Shown: positions 15,893 to 26,084 of the stretch, piece after piece
Position numbering within the stretch: the first letter of the stretch is position 1
Layout: every line of letters starts with the position of its first letter
Source: Solidesulfovibrio magneticus RS-1
GTDB lineage: Bacteria; Desulfobacterota; Desulfovibrionia; Desulfovibrionales; Desulfovibrionaceae
DNA length: 64,000 nucleotides
NCBI RefSeq assembly: GCF_000010665.1
Contig: NC_012796.1
Coordinates: forward strand, 2,261,501-2,325,500
Direction of reading: 5' to 3'
Program-made: the position numbers and the translations under genes
The notes under the pieces: generated by a model
The model's database searches: none
Seen by the model: only the letters and a program-made list of their open reading frames with translations
What the model was told of the DNA's origin: nothing

Positions 15893-18370
15893 TCAGGCGG
15901 CGTGCACCAGGCGTTGCATGGCCTTGGCCAGGGCCGGCTCCAGGGGGACGCTGGGCGTCGGCGCGCCCGGCGCGTCCTCGTACATTTTCCAATAGTCCTC
16001 AAATGCCTGGTCGATGGTGCGCTTTTCGGCGTAGTCCCGGCCGGCCCGGCCCATGGCCCGCATGAGTTCGGGATCGGCGATCAAGCCGGCCATGGCCGCA
16101 TAGAGCGCCTCGGCGTCGCCGGCCGGAACCACCACGCCGGTTTCGCCGGGCACGATGTTTTCCATGGGGCCGCCCTGGTTGGTGACGATGATCGGCAGGC
16201 CCGAGGCCTGGGCTTCCAGGACCACGTTGCCGAAAGTGTCGGTGGCGCTGGGAAAGACGAACAGGTCGCAGGCGGCGAAAAGCCCGGCTAGCTCCTCGCC
16301 CTCACGGTAGCCGGTGAAGACCGTGGGCGTGCTGGCAAGCTGCGCGCGCAGTTCGTCGAGATAGGGGCCGTCGCCCACGATACACAGCGTGGCCTCGGGG
16401 TGCTGGCCCACGAGGCGGCGGAAGGCCGCGGCCAGCAGATGCAGGTCCTTTTCCCGGGACACCCGGCCGGCGTAGAGCAGGCGCGGGCCGTGGCCCAGGC
16501 CAAAACGCGCCGCGAGATCCTCGTCGCGCTTGGCCGGATCGAAGCGGACCACGTCCACGCCGCGCGGGAAAAGCCGCAGCTTGGCCGGGTCCAGCCCCTT
16601 TTCGGCCAGCTCCCGGCCGGTTTCCCTGGAGGGCACGTACACCAGGTCCATCTGATTGTAATACCAGATGATGCACTTCCAGGTGAGGTCTTCCATGGCC
16701 TCGTCGCCGGTGAGAATCTGGGCGTATTGGGGCAGGGCCGTGTGGTAGGTGCCGTAGATGGGCAGGCGCAGCGTCTTGGCGATGCACAGGGCGGCCAGGC
16801 CGATGGGGCCGGGGGTGGCCGAGTGGATGCGGGTGAAGTTGCCGGCGTAGACGGAGTGGAGCATCTCCAGCAGGGGCGGGTAGTAGAGCTTCTGGTCGGG
16901 GTACTCGGCCAGGCTGTAGACGCCGATGGGCGTGAACTGCTGCACGCCCGGCTCGAAAACGCGCGGGCCGTGGTCGCAGGTGTAGATGCTTAAGGATTTT
17001 CCGGTTTTGATGGCCAGCTCGGCCTGCTGGCGCAGGGTGCCGGACACGCCGTTTATTTCGTGGAAGGTGTCGGTGAAGTGGGCCACGCGCACGGCGGCGT
17101 CCTTGCCGTTTTGTCCGGTGAGCGCCAGCCTGGCCTGGCTGCTGAACTGGCGGTCCTTGGTGAAGATGGAGTAGGCCAGGAAGTATGGGGCGAGCATGGT
17201 GTAGAGCGCCCCGGCCGAGCCCAGGGCCCCGAAGATGTCGAAGACGTTGGCTCCGCTGACGTGATCGAGCAGCGAGCCGGCGAAATGGGCGGCCACCCGG
17301 TTGGTGGCCCGGTTGACGAAGGAGAACCAGCCGTTTTCCAGGCTGTCGTTGCCAAGGACGCCGGCCCTGGCGAATTCCATGAGCGCCGGGTCGGAGTGGA
17401 TAAGCGATTCCGTCTCGGAGCGGATCAGTTCCCGAAGCGGGGTGCTGGCGCTCTTGCGGCGGCGGGTCAGTCCCCGGGCCAGCCGGCTTTTGAGGCGAAA
17501 GGCCAACCCCACGGCCTCCTGTTCGCCAGGTTCCAGGAACCGGTCCACGACCTTGAGGGTCACGTCCTTGTCCAGGAACCGATCGATACCGAAGCGGTGT
17601 TTATAATACTGGTAGGCGATGCTGTAGAGGTTGCGGGCCATGGTGCGCGGCGTGCTCGACGCTCCCCGGGCGACAGAGGCCCCGTTTTCCAGGCCGTCGA
17701 GGAATTCGGCCAGGTTTTCGGCGCCCTCCACCTCGGTGTAGGTGGAGGCGATGGTGAGCGCACTGTGGTCGTCGGAACCGCCGATCAGGTTCTTGCGCCA
17801 TGGCTGGGCATAGCCGGGGTCGATGCCGTGCTTGTCGGCCAGCCGCCAGATGGTGTCGGCGTCGAGGTTAGGGATGATGTCGCGCAGGCAGTCGTTTTGC
17901 CAGGCGTCGCGCGCGCCGTTGATCTCGAAATTGCGGAACAGCAGCAGGAGCTTTTCAAAATTGGCCACGGTCATGCGGTCGTTGACCCCGAAAAGCGGGT
18001 GGGCCACGGCGTGGTGGATGCCTTCCTGGCGCAGGTAATCGACCAGCTCGTGGATGTTTTCGCGCAGGCGCTGCATCTCCCGGTGCATGGCCTCGGTGAT
18101 GTCAAAGACCAGCACATGGACCTTGCAGCGGTCGTCGGGGAAATAGGACGTCACTTCCTCGCTGACGAAGGTTCCGGGCAGATGGGCGATGGATAGCACC
18201 CCTTCGATGCGGTTGTGATCGGAGATGGTTACAAGCCCCATGCCCTTGCGCCGGGCTTCCTCGTAGATACGCATCGGTTCGGTGAAGCTCTCGGGACAGT
18301 TGAGCTTTTGCAGCACCCACTGGGACGGGCGGGTGGAGAATTTGGAGTGCACGTGCAGGTCGATTTTCAT
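15893..18370 (-). CDS. PHP-domain / family 4 glycosyltransferase fusion
   Basis: An 825-residue two-part protein. The N-terminal half is a PHP-type metallohydrolase domain (DLHVHSKFS near residue 4, TISDHNRIEG near 47, and GGSDDHSALT near 200). The C-terminal half is a GT4 glycosyltransferase (LLYAGRVSREKDLHLL; FGNVVLEAQASGLP carrying the EX7E motif). AAGGAG lies just before the ATG at 18370, so the upstream frame to 18730 was discarded. The protein could make and trim a glycoconjugate or its phosphorylated intermediate, but neither substrate can be named. It is divergent from the EAL-CBS-GGDEF gene. Confidence 0.92.
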   Translation of the reverse strand: MKIDLHVHSKFSTRPSQWVLQKLNCPESFTEPMRIYEEARRKGMGLVTISDHNRIEGVLSIAHLPGTFVSEEVTSYFPDDRCKVHVLVFDITEAMHREMQRLRENIHELVDYLRQEGIHHAVAHPLFGVNDRMTVANFEKLLLLFRNFEINGARDAWQNDCLRDIIPNLDADTIWRLADKHGIDPGYAQPWRKNLIGGSDDHSALTIASTYTEVEGAENLAEFLDGLENGASVARGASSTPRTMARNLYSIAYQYYKHRFGIDRFLDKDVTLKVVDRFLEPGEQEAVGLAFRLKSRLARGLTRRRKSASTPLRELIRSETESLIHSDPALMEFARAGVLGNDSLENGWFSFVNRATNRVAAHFAGSLLDHVSGANVFDIFGALGSAGALYTMLAPYFLAYSIFTKDRQFSSQARLALTGQNGKDAAVRVAHFTDTFHEINGVSGTLRQQAELAIKTGKSLSIYTCDHGPRVFEPGVQQFTPIGVYSLAEYPDQKLYYPPLLEMLHSVYAGNFTRIHSATPGPIGLAALCIAKTLRLPIYGTYHTALPQYAQILTGDEAMEDLTWKCIIWYYNQMDLVYVPSRETGRELAEKGLDPAKLRLFPRGVDVVRFDPAKRDEDLAARFGLGHGPRLLYAGRVSREKDLHLLAAAFRRLVGQHPEATLCIVGDGPYLDELRAQLASTPTVFTGYREGEELAGLFAACDLFVFPSATDTFGNVVLEAQASGLPIIVTNQGGPMENIVPGETGVVVPAGDAEALYAAMAGLIADPELMRAMGRAGRDYAEKRTIDQAFEDYWKMYEDAPGAPTPSVPLEPALAKAMQRLVHAA

Positions 18371-18780: not shown

Positions 18781-21087
18781 ATGGAATGGAACAATGACCA
18801 TCCGCCCTACGTCAAAGGGGCGTTGCGCTCCCGTCCGGGACCTTTGGGGTCCGGTCCGGACGACGGGCCGGGCCTGTGCGACGGCCTTTTGGCCGCTGAC
18901 GGGGAAATGGGCCTGGTGACGGCGGCCATCGCCGATTTCGCCAGCCTTCTGCCCGAGATTGATCTGGAAACCGGTTGCGAGATTTTGCGCCTGTTGGCCG
19001 AGGGTGTGCGGGAAGGCTTTGCCCGCCATTTTCCAGGCTGCCGGGCGCTGCGGTTTCAGGAAACCGGGGTCGCCTCCCAGACCTGTGTTTTTGCCCAGGG
19101 GCCAGGCTGCCGCGAGCCCGGCGCGGTTCTCGGGTTCTTCGCCGCCTTCCGGGCCGCCCTGGCCGGGCCGTTGTCCGAGCGTCTCACGCGCCTGGCCGGC
19201 CGCCGGTTGGTCGTGGAGGTCGGCTACGCCCGCCTGGACGCCGCCGCCGGAGCCGGGCCGCGCCAGCTGTTGCGGGCCTTGTGCCAGGCCCAGTGCCTGG
19301 GCAAGCACGGCTTTGACGACGAACGGCGCCGTCTGCACCAGGCCTTTGAGCGCCTCATTGCCGCCCGGGAATGCGACGTGCGCTACCAGCCCCTGGTCGA
19401 TCTGGCCGGCGGCGGGGTGCTGGGCTGGGAAGCCTCGCTTCGGGGCGAAGCCGACGGCCCTTTCGCCGCCGTCGGCCAGCTCTGGGCCTTTGCCGCCACC
19501 TGCGGCGAGGAAGCGGGGCTGGACCGGCTTTTCCGGGAACTGGCCCTGTCCCGCCTGGGGCTGCTTGGCGACCGTCAAAAGCTCTTTTTGCCCATCCGCC
19601 ATGCCAGCCTCGACGATCCGGCTTTTGCCGCGCCCAGGCTCGCCGCCGATTTGGAGCGCCTGGGCCTGTCCCCGGCCGACGTGGTGCTGTGCGTTTCCGA
19701 GAAAAACGTCCTGGGCGACCTGTCCTGCCTGTTTGAACGCCTGGAACCCCACCGGGCCGCCGGGTTTGCCCTGGCCGCCGACGACGTGGGCGGCGGGGCG
19801 TCCAACCTGCTGCTGCTTTCCCGGGCCCGGCCCGACTGGATCAAGACCTGTCCGGGCCTGGCCGAGGCCGTGGAAGCCAATCCCTTTAAGCGGGTGATGC
19901 TCGAAACCCTGGCGCTTTTGTCGGAAAAAATCGGCGCGCGTCTGGCCGTGGCCGGCATCGCCTCGGAACTGGCCCTGTCCACGGTGGCCTCCATGGGCGT
20001 TCATGCCGCCCTGGGGCCGCATTTCGGCCAGCCGGCCTGTCCCAAGCTGGAGCAGGTGGCCGAATTGCCGCCCAAGGCGAACTTCGACATCCTGGGCGGC
20101 GGCGGCTGGCAATCCTCGGCCCCCATTGGCAATCTGGCCGAGGCCTGCCTCACCGTGGCCGAGGACACTACCGTGGACGAGGTGCGCGGGCTCTTGGCCG
20201 ACCGGCCGCCCATGACCAACGTGGTGGTGGCCGCCGCCGGCCGGCCGGTGGGCATTCTCATGAACTACCATCTGGATCGCCGGCTCAGCTCCCGTTACGG
20301 CAATTCCCTTTTTGGCCACAAATCCGTCACCCGCATCATGAACCCCAAGCCCCTTGTCGCCGAGGCCGCCCAGGCCGTGGAAGCCGTGGCCCGGCAGGCC
20401 ATGAACCGCGACCCGGCCATGGTCTATGACGATATCGTGGTGGTGGACGGGACCGGGCTTTTAGTCGGCACGGTCTCGGTGCAAAAGATGCTCGACTCCC
20501 TGGCCCAGGTGCAGGTGGAGCTGGCCAAGGGGCTTAATCCCTTGTCCGGCCTGCCCGGCAACATGGCCATCGAACTGGAAGTGGGGCGTCGGGCCAAGCT
20601 CGGCGGGCCGGCCAGCTGCGTCTACGTCGATCTCGACAATTTCAAGGTCTACAACGACGCTTACGGTTTTTCCAACGGCGACAAGGTGATTCTGCTCACG
20701 GCCAGGGTGCTGGCCGAAGCTCTGCGCGGCCGGCCGGACTGTTTTCTGGGCCACGTGGGGGGCGACGATTTCGTGTGCATCACCCCGCGAGAAGAGGCCG
20801 AAGGCCTGTGCCAGCGGGCCATCGAGGCCTTTGCCGGGGCCATCGGCGACCACTACAGCCCCGAAGACCGCCGACGCGGAGCCATCGCCGGCAAGTCCCG
20901 CGACGGCGCGCCCGGGATGTTCCCCCTGGTGTCGCTGTCCATGGGCATCGTGGACTGCGCTTTCGAGATACCTTTCAGCGCCGAGGAGTTCAGCCAGCGG
21001 GTGGCGGAAGTCAAGAAATTCGCCAAGACCCGGGCCGGCAACTCCTACGTGCGCGACCGCCGCGCTCCCCTTGGCGCGCGGGTTTGA
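18781..21087 (+). CDS. EAL-CBS-GGDEF protein with degenerate catalytic motifs
   Basis: A 768-residue cytosolic protein. An EAL-like domain (about 190-420) is followed by a CBS pair (about 450-575) and a C-terminal GGDEF-like domain (about 590-755). The EAL signature reads EAS (GWEASLRG). DDFGT is replaced by DDVGGG, and the later catalytic glutamate segment reads AVAGIAS, so phosphodiesterase activity is unlikely. The GGDEF motif reads GGDDF (GHVGGDDFVCI), so cyclase activity is doubtful. The protein is more likely a c-di-GMP receptor or scaffold than an enzyme. AGGGGAG precedes the ATG. It lies upstream of pstB on the same strand, with a 140-base gap. Confidence 0.9.
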   Translation: MEWNNDHPPYVKGALRSRPGPLGSGPDDGPGLCDGLLAADGEMGLVTAAIADFASLLPEIDLETGCEILRLLAEGVREGFARHFPGCRALRFQETGVASQTCVFAQGPGCREPGAVLGFFAAFRAALAGPLSERLTRLAGRRLVVEVGYARLDAAAGAGPRQLLRALCQAQCLGKHGFDDERRRLHQAFERLIAARECDVRYQPLVDLAGGGVLGWEASLRGEADGPFAAVGQLWAFAATCGEEAGLDRLFRELALSRLGLLGDRQKLFLPIRHASLDDPAFAAPRLAADLERLGLSPADVVLCVSEKNVLGDLSCLFERLEPHRAAGFALAADDVGGGASNLLLLSRARPDWIKTCPGLAEAVEANPFKRVMLETLALLSEKIGARLAVAGIASELALSTVASMGVHAALGPHFGQPACPKLEQVAELPPKANFDILGGGGWQSSAPIGNLAEACLTVAEDTTVDEVRGLLADRPPMTNVVVAAAGRPVGILMNYHLDRRLSSRYGNSLFGHKSVTRIMNPKPLVAEAAQAVEAVARQAMNRDPAMVYDDIVVVDGTGLLVGTVSVQKMLDSLAQVQVELAKGLNPLSGLPGNMAIELEVGRRAKLGGPASCVYVDLDNFKVYNDAYGFSNGDKVILLTARVLAEALRGRPDCFLGHVGGDDFVCITPREEAEGLCQRAIEAFAGAIGDHYSPEDRRRGAIAGKSRDGAPGMFPLVSLSMGIVDCAFEIPFSAEEFSQRVAEVKKFAKTRAGNSYVRDRRAPLGARV

Positions 21088-21227
21088 ACCGTTTCGTCAC
21101 GCAGGCGGCCTTTGTCACCGGTTTGCCATAAAGCCATGGCCTGTTCGTCATGGGCGGCGGGCATACCGGATCAGGCCGGGCGCGATGCCGCCCCGGCCGG
21201 CACAAACGCCCAAGGACGGCTCGCCCC

Positions 21228-21989
21228 ATGCAACACAGCGTCAAAATGGCCGCGGTGGACCTCGACTTCTACTACGGTCGGTTCAAGGCTCTTGAGAGCA
21301 TCAATCTGGAAATCCCCGAGCGCCGGGTCACAGCGCTCATTGGCCCGTCCGGCTGCGGCAAATCGACCTTTTTGCGGTGCCTCAATCGCATGAACGACCT
21401 CATCGCCGGCACGCGCACCGAAGGCGCGGTGCTCCTCGACGGGGTCAAGGTCAATGTGCCCAGCCTCGACGTGGTGGAGCTGCGGCGCAAGGTGGGCATG
21501 GTCTTTCAAAAGCCCAACCCCTTCCCCAAGACCATTTTCGAGAATGTGGCTTATGGCCTTCGCGTCGGCGGCGTGACCGATCGCAACTACATTTCGAGCC
21601 AGGTGGAAAAGAGCCTGGTCGCGGCCGGGCTTTTCACCGAAGTCAAGGACCGGCTTCATGATTCGGCCCTGGGCCTTTCCGGCGGCCAGCAGCAGCGGTT
21701 GTGCATTGCCCGGGCCGTGGCCCTGGAGCCGGAAGTGCTGCTCATGGACGAGCCGGCCTCGGCCTTGGACCCCATTGCCACCCAGAAGATCGAGGAGCTC
21801 ATTGCCGAGCTCAAGCGCAACTACACCATCGCCATCGTCACCCACAGCATGCAGCAGGCGGCTCGGGTCTCGGACCTCACCGCCTTTTTCTACATGGGCA
21901 AGCTCGTGGAAGTCGGCCCTACCGAAGCCATTTTCACCCGTCCGGCCAATCAGCAGACCGAAGACTACGTGACCGGCCGTTTCGGCTGA
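21228..21989 (+). CDS. pstB: Phosphate ABC transporter ATP-binding protein PstB
   Basis: A 253-residue ABC ATPase with Walker [10 protein letters not shown], signature LSGGQQQR, Walker B VLLMDEP, and the PstB-typical [11 protein letters not shown] and [19 protein letters not shown]. It powers the PstCA phosphate channel. Unusually, pstS, pstC and pstA are not beside it. Only phoU follows, 62 bases downstream. The ATG at 21228 was chosen by homology and the AAGGAC before it; the frame upstream is unrelated. The call is firm. Confidence 0.96.
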
Positions 21990-22051
21990 TGCCGCAGGCG
22001 CGCCATAGGTCGCCCCGCCAGAAACAACGCCAAGCCTTCGGGAGCCATTTC

Positions 22052-22717
22052 ATGGAAAGCAGAGCCCATTTTCACGCCGAACTCGATGCCCTCAAGGGCC
22101 GTGTCATCGCCCTTTCCGTGCTGGTCGAAACGGCCCGCCAGGGCGCGGTGGCCGCCTATCGCCAAAACGACCAGACCTTGGCCCGCCAGATCATCGAAGG
22201 CGACAAGGCCATCAACCAGCAGGCCTGCGACATCGACGAGGCCTGCCTCAAGCTGTTGGCCCTGGAGCAGCCGGTCGCCCTGGACTTGCGCCGCATCGTC
22301 GGCTACGCCCGGGCCGTCATCAACCTCGAACGCCTGGGCGATGAAGCCGTCAACATCGCCGAGGGCGCGTTGGTCGGGGCCGGGCTTCCGGGCGACTGCG
22401 ACGGCGCGCTCATGGAGCTTTCCGACCATGTGGCCGGCATGTTGGCCCTGGCCTCGCGGTCCTTTGTCGAGGATGACGTGGACGCGGCCATGGACGTCTG
22501 CCGTCTGGACGAGCGGGCCAGGGAACTGGCCGTGGCCGCCATGCGCTGCATCACCGAGGCGCTTTCGCGCTGCCAGGCCGCGCCCGAGGACGGGGTGCGG
22601 GCCATTCTCGCCTGCCGCAGTTTCGAGCGTATGGCCGGACACGCCGCCAACCTCGGCGAGATCCTGGTCTTTATCGTCAAGGGCGTCATCCTGAGCCAGA
22701 AATGCCAGCCCCGCTAG
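22052..22717 (+). CDS. phoU: Phosphate-signalling protein PhoU
   Basis: A 221-residue all-helical protein with the two repeated PhoU units. The metal-binding-type motifs are VINLERLGDEAVNIAE in the first and SFERMAGHAANLGE in the second. PhoU links Pst transport to the PhoR/PhoB phosphate response and restrains uptake. CGGGAG precedes the ATG at 22052. It follows pstB directly and is 29 bases upstream of the kinase B gene, so phosphate sensing and the kinase/CofD pair may share a transcript. Confidence 0.95.
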   Translation: MESRAHFHAELDALKGRVIALSVLVETARQGAVAAYRQNDQTLARQIIEGDKAINQQACDIDEACLKLLALEQPVALDLRRIVGYARAVINLERLGDEAVNIAEGALVGAGLPGDCDGALMELSDHVAGMLALASRSFVEDDVDAAMDVCRLDERARELAVAAMRCITEALSRCQAAPEDGVRAILACRSFERMAGHAANLGEILVFIVKGVILSQKCQPR

Positions 22718-22746
22718 TCTCGGCCCGTCCTTTGGAGCCTTTGCCC

Positions 22747-23805
22747 ATGACGGCCGCCTGCGCCGACGTCATCGCCGCCAGCCGCGCTACCGTGCCCCAT
22801 GTCGTGGACGTCATGCCGGGCGGAACGCGGCTTCGCGTACAGACCAACAGTTTGCCCCTGGCCCAAGCCCTGAGCCGCCATTTCGCCGCCTTTCCGGGCG
22901 ACGGCGGCCAGCCCGATCTGGTTGTCAAGGCCGTGGACGGCCCCAGCCCAGAGCTTGACCTGACCTTTGTCCCCCACGAGTCCGAGGGCGGCAAGGAAGA
23001 GTATGCCGATCTGCCCGACGGCCGCCTGGTGCGCAAGCGCCGTACCGGGCTGCTGCTCGTCTTCGGTGCGGCCGGCAACTGGATTTTCGGCCCCTGTGCC
23101 GCCTGGCCCCAGCAAGTGATCAACGCCGTCAACGCCCGGCTGGCCGATCGGGAACTGGCCCGGGGCGCGGCGCTGCTCCATGCCGCCGCCGTGGCTCGGG
23201 GAGAGGCCGCCCTGGCCCTGGCCGGGCTGGCCGGCGCGGGCAAGACCACCCTGGCTTTGGAACTGGTGCGGCGCGGCGCGGATTTCGTCACCAACGACCG
23301 CTTGTTCGTTACCTCCGAACCCAACGGCTTCGGGTGTTGCGGCGTAGCCCGGCCGCCCCGGGTCAACCCCGGAACGATCCTGGGCAACGACCGCCTGCAT
23401 GGGCTTCTTGACCCGGCCGAGCGGGCCGCTTATGCCGCCTTGCCGCCTGATGCGCTATGGGGGCTTGAATCCAAACATGACGCCCCCATTGAGACGTGTT
23501 TCGGGCCGGGGCGGGTGCGCCTTCGGGCCGGGCTTCACGCCCTGATCGTGCTGTGCTGGAAACGCGGCGGCGGCCCCGTGGACGCGCGCTGGACCACGTT
23601 GGCAGCCGCGCCCGAACTGGTCCCGGCCATCACCAAGGACCTAGGCGTGCTGTTTCTGGCCGGTCCGCGCCCGGCCGATCCGGCCGCCTATCTCGCCGCC
23701 CTGGGAGAACTGCCGGTGCTGGCGCTCTTAGGCGGCACGGACGTTTCCCACGCGGCCCAGTTGTGCCAGGACATCCTCTGGCGCGCCGACGAAGGTCGGC
23801 CATGA
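22747..23805 (+). CDS. HprK-related kinase B (GAK-type locus)
   Basis: A 352-residue protein. Its C-terminal half resembles HPr kinase: Walker A AGLAGAGKTTLALELV near residue 160, then VTNDRLFVTS. The N-terminal half has no obvious known domain. It matches what I know as HprK-related kinase B, part of the GAK systems found mainly in deltaproteobacteria, whose function is unknown. The stop overlaps the CofD-like ATG by 4 bases. The usual ATP-grasp, amphi-Trp and XXXCH partner genes are not in this window. The start at 22747 has GGAG upstream; an upstream ATG at 22702 would overlap phoU. Confidence 0.82.
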   Translation: MTAACADVIAASRATVPHVVDVMPGGTRLRVQTNSLPLAQALSRHFAAFPGDGGQPDLVVKAVDGPSPELDLTFVPHESEGGKEEYADLPDGRLVRKRRTGLLLVFGAAGNWIFGPCAAWPQQVINAVNARLADRELARGAALLHAAAVARGEAALALAGLAGAGKTTLALELVRRGADFVTNDRLFVTSEPNGFGCCGVARPPRVNPGTILGNDRLHGLLDPAERAAYAALPPDALWGLESKHDAPIETCFGPGRVRLRAGLHALIVLCWKRGGGPVDARWTTLAAAPELVPAITKDLGVLFLAGPRPADPAAYLAALGELPVLALLGGTDVSHAAQLCQDILWRADEGRP

Positions 23806-25061
23806 CGACATTGCCTGTACCGAGCCTCGACGCTATTGAAGGAACCGACGTGCCAGACGCCAAGCCATCGCCCCGGGCGCGCATCGCCCGCACCGTGCGC
23901 CTGCCCGATCCGTCCCGGGCGGCGCTTTTCCGCCGCGCTCCGGAACTGGGACCGCGCGTGCTCTTTTTCAGCGGCGGCACGGCGCTTCGCGACCTCAGTA
24001 CCACGCTGATTGAATACACCGCCAATTCCATCCACTTGATCACGCCCTTTGATTCCGGCGGTTCCTCGGCCGTGCTGCGCAAGGCCTTCGGGATGCCGGC
24101 CGTGGGCGATCTGCGAAACCGCATCATGGCCCTGGCCGACCGCAGCATCACCGGCAATCCGGCCGTGTTCGAGCTTTTTGCCCACCGCCTGCCCAAGGAC
24201 GCGCCCCAGGACGAACTGGCGGCTAAGCTCGTACGGATCATGAACGGCGAAGACCCGCTCATCCGCCGGGTGCCCGATCCCCTGCGCAAGATCATCCGCA
24301 CCCATCTGCGCTTTTTCAACGAACGCCGTCCCAAGGATTTCGACCTGCGCGGGGCCAGCATCGGCAACTGCATCCTGGCCGGCGGCTATTTCAACTACAA
24401 CCGGATGCTCGACCCGGTCATCTACCTCTTTATGCAGCTGGTCGAGGCCCGGGGCGTGGTGCGGCCCATCGTCAACGCCGACCTGCACCTGGCCTGCCGC
24501 CTGGCCGACGGTCGGGTGCTCATTGGTCAGCACAACATGACCGGCAAGGAAGCCGCGCCCATCGACGCGCCCATCGAGTCCCTGTGGCTGACCGCCAGCC
24601 TCGACGACCCGACCCCGGCCAGCGTGCGCATCCGCGACAAGACCGACAAGCTCATCCGTCAGGCCGAGGTCATCTGCTTTCCCTACGGCAGCTTCTATTC
24701 GAGCCTCATGGCCAACCTGCTCCCCCAGGGCGTGGGCGACGCCGTGGCCGCCGCCGATTGTCCCAAGGTCTACATCCCCAATCTCGGGCACGATCCCGAA
24801 CAGCAGGGCCTGACCGTGGCCGACCAGACGCGCCGGCTCCTGGACGCCCTGGAAGCCGGCTGCGCCAAGGCCTGCCGCCGCGAGGACCTGCTGCGCTTCG
24901 TCTTCGTGGACAGCCGGGGAGGGCGCTACGACGGCGGCCTGGACATCCCGGCCATCCGCCGCCTGGGCGTGGAAGTGGTGGACGTGCCGCTGGCCCGGTC
25001 CGACGATTCCGGCCAGGCCGACAGCCGCAAGGTGGCCGAGCTGCTCGTTTCCCTGGCCTGA
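23802..25061 (+). CDS. CofD-like protein of the GAK type
   Basis: A 419-residue protein of the CofD/YvcK (UPF0052) fold. It carries FSGGTALRDLSTTL near residue 48, ITPFDSGGSSAVLRKAFGMPAVGDLRNRIMALAD, and the later PYGSFYSSLMANLLPQGVGDAV. True CofD transfers a phospholactyl or phosphoenolpyruvyl group in coenzyme F420 synthesis; YvcK binds UDP-sugars. The extra internal segment (about residues 100-200) and its pairing with kinase B fit the GAK CofD-like subgroup, of unknown reaction. Its start overlaps the kinase stop (ATGA). CorA lies 87 bases downstream. Confidence 0.85.
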   Translation: MTTLPVPSLDAIEGTDVPDAKPSPRARIARTVRLPDPSRAALFRRAPELGPRVLFFSGGTALRDLSTTLIEYTANSIHLITPFDSGGSSAVLRKAFGMPAVGDLRNRIMALADRSITGNPAVFELFAHRLPKDAPQDELAAKLVRIMNGEDPLIRRVPDPLRKIIRTHLRFFNERRPKDFDLRGASIGNCILAGGYFNYNRMLDPVIYLFMQLVEARGVVRPIVNADLHLACRLADGRVLIGQHNMTGKEAAPIDAPIESLWLTASLDDPTPASVRIRDKTDKLIRQAEVICFPYGSFYSSLMANLLPQGVGDAVAAADCPKVYIPNLGHDPEQQGLTVADQTRRLLDALEAGCAKACRREDLLRFVFVDSRGGRYDGGLDIPAIRRLGVEVVDVPLARSDDSGQADSRKVAELLVSLA

Positions 25062-25148
25062 TCCCAAAGCTTCCGCAGTGTGGCGGAGCGCATTCCCATG
25101 GACGATGCCGCCCCTGTCCCTGTTTCTTGATTCCAAGGAGTCCGCATC

Positions 25149-26084
25149 ATGATGCAGTGTTTCATCGGCGAGGCCGGCAAGCCGCAGATCGTCGACAGCG
25201 TGACGCGGAAATGCTGGATTCACATGGTCGATCCGAGCGAGGACGAGATCCAGTACATCGTCCGGGAACTCGGCGTGCCGCTGGATTTCCTGACCGATCC
25301 CCTGGACGTGGACGAACGGTCGCGCATTGAGCAGGAGGACGGCGTGCTGCTGCTGGTGCTGCGCGTGCCGGTGCGCCACGACGAGACCTCGGGCGGCGTG
25401 CCCTTCGCCACCGTTGCCCAGGGCGTCATCGTCGCCGGGGATCATGTGGTGACGGTGTCCAAGGTGGAAAACGAGCTGACGCGCCATTTCGTCGATGGCC
25501 TGGCCAAGCAGTGCACCCCGGAGCGGCCCGGCCGGTTCGTCATTCAGCTCTTGCAGCGAAACGCGCTGCAGTTCCTGGCCGATCTGCGGGAGATCAACCG
25601 CCTGACCAATCTCATCGAGCAGGAGTTGCACAAGTCCTCGCGAAACGAGGAGCTCATTGGCCTCGTCAACATCGAAAAAAGCCTCGTCTACTTCATCACC
25701 TCGCTGCAATCCAACAACCTCATTATGAAGACGCTCTTGCGACGAAAAATCATCGCCCTGGACGAGGACGAGCGGGACCTGCTCGAAGACGCGCTCATTG
25801 AAAACAAGCAGGCCATCAGCATGACCAAGATCTACACCGATATTTTAAGCGGCCTCATGGACGCTTTTGCTTCCATCGTTTCCAATAATTTGAACGTCAC
25901 CATGAAGTTTTTGACCTGCTTCACCATCATTCTCATGATCCCCAACATCCTGGCCGGCCTGTTTGGCATGAACGTCAAGCTGCCGCTGCAGGACGAACCT
26001 CAGGCCTTTGTCTACATCGTCCTGGCCTCGTTGGCCTTTGCTTTTGCTCTGAGCGCGGTTTTCGTCAAGAAACGCTGGTTCTGA
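25149..26084 (+). CDS. corA: CorA-family Mg2+/divalent cation channel
   Basis: A 311-residue protein with a long cytosolic alpha/beta domain and helical stalk, and two C-terminal transmembrane helices. The hallmark GMN motif is at the end of TM1 (LAGLFGMNVKLPL, near residue 278). The acidic loop QDEPQ replaces the common MPE-type motif, and the C-terminus ends in KKRWF. The family forms pentameric channels for Mg2+ or Co2+/Ni2+. CAAGGAG lies 8 bases before the start. A strong terminator follows 20 bases after the stop, closing the transcript from pstB onward. Confidence 0.93.
   Translation: MMQCFIGEAGKPQIVDSVTRKCWIHMVDPSEDEIQYIVRELGVPLDFLTDPLDVDERSRIEQEDGVLLLVLRVPVRHDETSGGVPFATVAQGVIVAGDHVVTVSKVENELTRHFVDGLAKQCTPERPGRFVIQLLQRNALQFLADLREINRLTNLIEQELHKSSRNEELIGLVNIEKSLVYFITSLQSNNLIMKTLLRRKIIALDEDERDLLEDALIENKQAISMTKIYTDILSGLMDAFASIVSNNLNVTMKFLTCFTIILMIPNILAGLFGMNVKLPLQDEPQAFVYIVLASLAFAFALSAVFVKKRWF

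Follow-up and report, generated by a model that had tools for sequence, protein, structure and literature searches.

A kinase and CofD-like gene pair behind pstB-phoU in Solidesulfovibrio magneticus: a putative phosphate-linked, split form of the GAK system

The gene pair and its closest known relatives

GAK systems (NCBIfam TIGR04354-TIGR04358) were named from comparative genomics. Their usual gene order is XXXCH-PHP-amphi-Trp-PhoU::APH-ATP-grasp-HprK_B-CofD, often followed by another amphi-Trp gene. Here we describe a pair of GAK genes, encoding an HprK-related kinase B (HprK_B) and a CofD-like protein (CofD), that stands behind the phosphate-transport genes pstB and phoU in a stretch of 64,000 nucleotides of Solidesulfovibrio magneticus RS-1 (hereafter the window, C2:2261501-2325500; the genome has 5,315,620 bases and its chromosome 5,248,049). 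As in the described systems, kinase B, CofD-like, ATP-grasp, amphi-Trp and XXXCH proteins all score over their cut-offs in this genome; however, they are spread over several loci, the kinase is duplicated, and one kinase gene and the CofD-like gene lie behind pstB-phoU with a Pho-box-like element. The other close comparison is the pstSCAB-phoU operon of the Pho regulon, with which the window shares the pstB-phoU order and an upstream 11-bp direct repeat; it differs in that a GGDEF/EAL gene, not a pst gene, directly precedes pstB, and in the added kinase and CofD-like genes. From sequence comparison we consider it quite likely that the pair is part of a phosphate-regulated split GAK module.

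The original prediction for this DNA had placed pstB before and corA after the phoU, kinase and CofD-like genes. All five genes were confirmed, all on the + strand:

21228..21989, + strand: pstB, phosphate ABC transporter ATPase (TIGR00972, 393.9 bits, cut-off 343.2)
22052..22717, + strand: phoU (TIGR02135, 158.5 bits, cut-off 130.25)
22747..23805, + strand: HprK-related kinase B (TIGR04355, 336 bits, cut-off 200)
23850..25061, + strand: GAK CofD-like gene, alternative start ATG 23802 (TIGR04357, 536.1 bits, cut-off 340; PF01933)
25149..26084, + strand: corA-like Mg2+ transporter, a non-conserved member of the arrangement (PF01544, 190.2 bits)

The assignment of the two proteins to GAK families held up, low scores against these models being excluded: both the kinase (TIGR04355) and the CofD-like protein (TIGR04357) lie far above the curated cut-offs, which argues that they are no chance pair of open reading frames. 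The kinase ATG stands 29 bases past the phoU stop, as had been claimed. The 4-base overlap also claimed between the kinase and CofD-like genes depends on ATG 23802, which is present in just 4 of the 14 compared loci (the window, L043, L103 and L104), whereas all 14 have (A/G)AGGA and then GTG at the site that corresponds to window 23850 (L046 and L105 are identical). The overlap is therefore probably unreal, and the most likely start of the CofD-like gene, judged by conservation, is GTG 23850, with a gap of 44 bases after the kinase stop. In a scan of the + strand, no terminator-like site turned up between the phoU and kinase genes. A structured RNA leader was rejected, there being no Rfam match at gathering scores in 20900-25300.

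The catalytic motifs of the kinase are all intact (P-loop, H145, N183-D184-R185, K243 and D245), and its predicted model has a mean predicted local distance difference test (pLDDT) value of 95.3; on these grounds a pseudogene was rejected. The model has the HprK fold with its P-loop, the structural matches being HPr kinase/phosphorylase (HprK/P) and phosphoenolpyruvate carboxykinase (PEPCK). It differs from HprK/P in that it scores 20 bits against a Pfam Hpr_kinase_C cut-off of 33.3 and that full-length 1ko7 aligns to it over the C-terminal domain only (138 residues), and from ATP-dependent PEPCK in its length (352 residues vs >500), with 14% identity. In the HprK_B tree the window kinase is a duplicated, fast-evolving paralogue specific to the genus; this tree and the CofD tree are quick searches, and the window kinase was flagged for unusual composition. 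It is also the fastest-evolving of the four genes, with 52-62% identity in five more distant genomes of the genus, where CofD shows 75-83%, PhoU 67-81% and PstB 83-94%.

The CofD-like protein, the only one of the GAK type in the genome, belongs to the CofD/YvcK superfamily (PF01933, 121.4 bits, cut-off 30), and its relatives bind nucleotide-linked ligands. Its nearest named record, in a search that may not have covered the window's own record, is from S. magneticus UBA7700 (98% identity). It shares the Pfam CofD domain with CofD, the 2-phospho-L-lactate transferase of F420 synthesis; a further likeness is that the GAK ATP-grasp enzyme resembles MptN, tetrahydromethanopterin:glutamate ligase, which is its second-best model (120 bits, cut-off 350). 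However, the CofD-like protein matched no NCBIfam CofD transferase model at an expect value (E) of 0.001, and its sequence is nearer to UPF0052, which is the YvcK family as judged by TIGR01826. Its best solved-structure sequence matches are UPF0052 proteins (2o2z, E 4.3e-18). From YvcK itself, a UDP-GlcNAc-binding regulator, it is set apart by a TIGR01826 score of 104.5 bits, below the cut-off of 196, and by the UPF0052 motif DDGGSS, which is FDSGGS(S/T) in 15 of 15 GAK proteins aligned.

GAK partners elsewhere in the genome and across genomes

The original prediction had also noted that an ATP-grasp enzyme, an amphi-Trp protein and an XXXCH protein are missing beside the pair. This is true of the 64-kb window, which holds none of the three GAK partners, but not of the genome, where all are present; every ATP-grasp, amphi-Trp and XXXCH match listed in a genome profile search lies at least 118 kb from the pair. 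The single GAK ATP-grasp gene is at C2:2018297 (422 bits, cut-off 300), and amphi-Trp and XXXCH proteins score over cut-off at four and two loci, respectively. A locus next to the gene of a PiT phosphate transporter (locus B) holds the ATP-grasp gene together with the second HprK_B, an amphi-Trp gene and a PhoU::APH fusion. A further cluster encodes the other PhoU::APH along with amphi-Trp and XXXCH proteins and a PHP-type phosphoesterase. The GAK members thus do not stand in one operon here, the pair being in the window and the rest in several loci. Because the partners sit elsewhere in the genome, the system is, by its gene content, a split GAK system whose kinase is duplicated, and the idea of a GAK remnant without partners was rejected. 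Split GAK operons are also found in another genus (L050-L052 with L183-L185). The formerly unnamed GAK partner has a PHP phosphoesterase fold; it and PhoU::APH are both recurrent members that the name of the system omits.

Two gene rows with ParA-type ATPases were observed around XXXCH and amphi-Trp genes. In L040 (9147-11853) a free-standing XXXCH gene directly precedes a ParA gene; downstream there is a ParB-like gene. In L041 (6723-8896; C2:2708723-2710896) a ParA-type ATPase, an Ala/Pro-rich protein without a Pfam match and an amphi-Trp protein are encoded consecutively, which could be a granule-positioning operon; the upstream gap has a Pho-box-like site with one mismatch, and a control pattern also yields one-mismatch sites.

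The wider distribution was examined in 140 CofD loci, a non-random set of 60 regions chosen from genome matches and the best 80 of a wider search (some contigs are in both), which fall into 83 groups at 75% CofD identity. A gene was counted in a locus when any tblastn hit lay within ~10 kb on either side of CofD, less on short contigs; these counts replaced an all-versus-all clustering of neighbours, which missed CofD in 32 of the 140 loci owing to spurious high-GC open reading frames. HprK_B is found in 94 of the loci, the ATP-grasp gene in 87, PhoU::APH in 82 and PHP in 71. Among 150 genomes of the order, CofD is present in 131 (over cut-off in 128), and HprK_B and the ATP-grasp enzyme are over cut-off in 68 and 78, respectively. 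All 68 genomes with HprK_B have the ATP-grasp gene, compared with 10 of the 82 others (no correction for phylogeny), and 2 of the 68 lack CofD. The corA gene was rejected as a member of the system, since it is present in 5 of the 140 CofD loci. Of these, L047 and L104 belong to the same contig and L148 contributes a distant match at 4.7 kb, so that beside the pair corA is confined to the window and the relatives closest to it. A contig titled 'Halobacteria archaeon' (L172) is probably misbinned: in the HprK_B tree it falls together with an Ectothiorhodospiraceae contig, and the two are alike in gene order.

Linkage to phosphate transport genes and a conserved upstream repeat

The suggestion that the link to phosphate transport is meaningful gained support from four sides: pst/phoU adjacency recurs, PiT stands beside locus B, PhoU::APH is encoded in the operons, and a Pho-box-like site lies upstream. 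phoU is found in 22 of the 140 CofD loci and in 7 of the 83 groups (6 of them outside the genus), 14 of the 22 loci forming one genus group; pstB is found in 15 loci and 6 groups. Among 21 control genes, for which the thresholds were stricter than for PhoU, 12 were in no locus, dxs was in one group, and the other 8 were derived from the flanks of the loci themselves (ddl was also seen once outside them). When the 100 rows of the dereplicated CofD tree, from which L062 was left out, are labelled for pst/phoU (12 rows), 6 changes are needed, and at least 4 are forced by well-supported branches.

The adjacency takes unlike gene orders in Desulfovibrionales, a Desulfobacteraceae metagenome-assembled genome (MAG) and gammaproteobacterial-type contigs. 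The Solidesulfovibrio arrangement, pstB-phoU-HprK_B-CofD, is kept, within the reach of the contigs, in each of the eight genomes that represent the genus in the order sample. Three loci (L058, L069 and L071) have pstB-phoU-small protein-CofD with a PhoB-like regulator upstream, which scores 254.6 bits with TIGR02154 in L058 (cut-off 296.2) and has receiver and DNA-binding domains in L069; the small proteins of L058 and L071 look amphi-Trp-like by eye and have no Pfam amphi-Trp match. In L062 and L110 pstB-phoU is followed by a full GAK operon, and in L151 an ArsC-like gene lies between. Two loci carry HprK_B without CofD at 6.2 kb (L198) and 3.5 kb (L200) from pstB. PiT stands beside locus B in S. 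magneticus itself and in 5 of the 6 genus relatives checked. In the gammaproteobacterial-type contigs L156 and L172, a PhoU fused to a low-molecular-weight phosphatase is found ~6 kb on, in L156 followed by Pst-type transporter genes. These fusions (L156 17131-18264; L172 11276-12361), and the phoU gene followed by the ArsC-like gene in L151 (1892-2998), possibly reflect a link between arsenate and phosphate.

A block upstream of pstB is conserved in 10 aligned regions (two of them identical), and its flanks are not. It reads TTGTCAC-N4-TTGCCA(T/C), with an 11-bp period. A Pho box consists of two 7-bp direct repeats with the same period. In the window the repeat is TTGTCAC-N4-TTGCCAT, 116 bp before the pstB start:

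21112..21129, + strand: Pho-box-like direct repeat, the core of a conserved block to ~21151
18781..21087, + strand: EAL-CBS-GGDEF protein gene, ending 24 bases before the Pho-box-like site

The perfect pattern TTGTCACNNNNTTGYCAY has 11 sites in the 14 genus genomes (in 7 of them), and its backward control has none. Ten of the 11 sites lie 115-117 bp before a predicted start, seven before pstB and three before the gene of a PhoR/PnpS-like histidine kinase (PhoR-like) in three related genomes; one site of the window's own genome (L205) has no pst or PhoR-like gene next to it. Since the pattern itself came from the pstB region, the hits before pstB are circular, which does not apply to those before PhoR-like genes. 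In the window's genome the PhoR-like gene is followed by a TIGR00153-like gene and a PiT transporter gene (PHO4, 326 bits, cut-off 33.7), and the same motif stands 116 bp before this operon. The pstB and PhoR-like leaders have little in common beyond the repeat. In Desulfovibrio alaskensis G20, the PhoR homologue Dde_3782 and PstB showed strong fitness defects at low phosphate, according to PMC5193443.

The E. coli Pho-box consensus was also used for a scan, in which none of the 14 printed pstB-type loci exceeded its own 95th percentile (15 were given; L062 has no upstream region), and among seven regions upstream of locus B only L196 did (11 vs 10). The scan is not significant and was rejected as stand-alone evidence. 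No pstB-type site was seen in the alignment of the locus-B upstream regions. These regions, upstream of amphi-Trp (L038, L192-L196 and L202), have a second conserved block with an 11-bp CTTCA repeat (GCTTCACCTTTTCTTCAT in the window genome).

Taken as a whole, a split GAK system placed under phosphate control is likely the best explanation. Several observations weigh against it. There is no phoU in the locus for 76 of the 83 CofD groups, though many contigs are short, and many genomes carry CofD-like genes without the kinase or the ATP-grasp gene. The latter counts against a strict dependence of CofD on the kinase, so CofD may be able to act without it. As for the repeat, 7 of the 14 genus genomes have no perfect site, and the genes sharing the motif, PhoR-like and TIGR00153-like, do not reach their NCBIfam cut-offs. 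When one mismatch is allowed, S. magneticus has 7 sites vs 2 for the backward control, and because the control also yields sites at this level only the perfect ones carry weight. The window site matches the E. coli Pho-box consensus at 10 of 14 positions, equal to the 95th percentile of shuffles. A scan of 20950-25300 gave no sigma-70-type promoter match on the + strand. Among open-licence PMC papers, finally, none was found with data on GAK function, substrate, expression or mutants, and the main text of PMC5193443 does not mention HPr, CofD or ATP-grasp.

Possible functions of the GAK module

Under phosphate control, the system could work as follows. When phosphate is scarce, a PhoB-type regulator would switch on pstB, phoU, the kinase gene and cofD as a single transcript. 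The kinase, an ATP-using enzyme of the HprK/PEPCK fold, would phosphorylate a small molecule or a small carrier, for which the amphi-Trp and XXXCH proteins are candidates; the CofD-like protein would transfer or sense the phosphorylated group, and the RimK/MptN-like ATP-grasp enzyme would add an amino acid. PhoU::APH may be a phosphate sensor that ties the module to phosphate status, and the PHP phosphoesterase may catalyze the reverse step. This kinase-transferase-ligase chemistry, guessed from folds, is tentative. It is a speculative and rather doubtful proposal that GAK, with PhoU::APH and PHP in its core, is a phosphate-starvation biosynthetic module that both makes and recycles a hitherto undescribed metabolite, phosphorylated and tipped with an amino acid, through reactions resembling those of the F420 tail (a kinase, a CofD-like transfer and an MptN-like ligation), and that this metabolite serves as a phosphate signal or reserve; the Solidesulfovibrio module would then be split between the Pst and PiT loci with one kinase copy each.

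Other functions could also be served by the same genes. The kinase and the CofD-like protein might instead form a post-translational regulator that phosphorylates PhoU, PstB or PhoU::APH and tunes Pst or PiT transport, no metabolite being made. The pstB-phoU adjacency in Solidesulfovibrio and other lineages and the PhoU::APH fusion in GAK operons are consistent with this, as is the structural match to HprK/P, the nearest protein kinase, which phosphorylates a serine of a small protein. On the other hand, the ATP-grasp, CofD-like and PHP phosphoesterase partners resemble enzymes of small molecules, and phoU is not seen in the locus for 76 of 83 CofD groups, so that we consider such a regulator a serious candidate of rather low probability.

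A role in polyphosphate storage, in which GAK modifies or primes polyphosphate or coats granules through the amphi-Trp and XXXCH proteins, is unlikely. It is suggested by three gammaproteobacterial-type loci (L125, L156 and L172), where the CofD-like gene is 3 kb from genes for a CHAD-domain protein (Pfam CHAD, 201-216 bits) and a ParA-type ATPase, and by the amphi-Trp gene two genes past the ParA gene in the window genome (L041). Earlier studies report parA-CHAD-ppk clusters in Acidithiobacillus (PMC10892726), polyphosphate binding by CHAD (PMC6537752) and phosphate-limited D. alaskensis without polyphosphate granules (PMC5193443). However, a genome search found no CHAD protein in S. magneticus, and the CHAD link is confined to a single cluster of contigs that are related to one another. 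A common ParA type joining amphi-Trp and CHAD was rejected, since the similarity between the two ParA proteins compared is no more than generic (33% over 163 residues).

A neighbour of the pair brings a third possibility into play:

15893..18370, - strand: PHP-like::GT4 glycosyltransferase (Pfam GT4 domains; PHP-like N-terminal motif by eye)

The N-terminal part of this protein has no Pfam PHP hit. The gene is a recurrent GAK neighbour in other genera, being present in 28 of the 140 CofD loci (9 of 83 groups). It is found in 80 of the 150 genomes of the order at E 1e-100; positions were computed for 59 of these, 20 of which, from 7 genera, have it within 10 kb of a GAK gene, and the other 21 were judged by eye, with none within 10 kb of CofD among the matches listed. 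In L200 (G032), PHP-like::GT4, PhoU::APH, ATP-grasp, HprK_B, pstB and phoU all lie inside 13.1 kb. In five genomes (G083, G122, G123, G133 and G144) the match stops at about residue 414 despite a long open frame, which would fit divergence or replacement of the glycosyltransferase half. The protein is a candidate phosphorus-free glycolipid synthase, and GAK might, together with it, take part in the swap of phospholipids for phosphorus-free glycolipids at phosphate limitation. In D. alaskensis, according to PMC5193443, these glycolipids depend at low phosphate on the Agt homologue Dde_3613, a group 1 glycosyltransferase. Besides this, the counts of PHP-like::GT4 near CofD and GAK genes speak for lipid replacement; however, ~60 of the 80 genomes have the gene away from GAK (partly by eye), and we regard such a role as quite improbable. 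Least probable of all, and very unlikely, is an accidental neighbourhood in which pstB-phoU has, by chance, a solo CofD gene and a relaxed, duplicated kinase downstream: the fast evolution of the kinase would fit, but its catalytic residues are retained, none of the eight genus genomes departs from the gene order within the length of its contigs, and further pst/phoU links occur in other lineages.

To our knowledge, the features that are new for GAK are its split form with a link to phosphate, PhoU::APH and PHP as members, and the upstream element shared with the PhoR-like operon. They suggest that GAK belongs to phosphate homeostasis. The tie to pst, phoU and PiT, the PhoU::APH fusion and the shared site give a concrete condition, phosphate limitation, and concrete genes in cultivable sulfate reducers. 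If the explanation is true, GAK would be an overlooked layer of bacterial phosphate control with a kinase of the HprK/PEPCK fold, present in Desulfobacterota, Gammaproteobacteria and some other phyla (as assigned by record titles, many records being MAGs).

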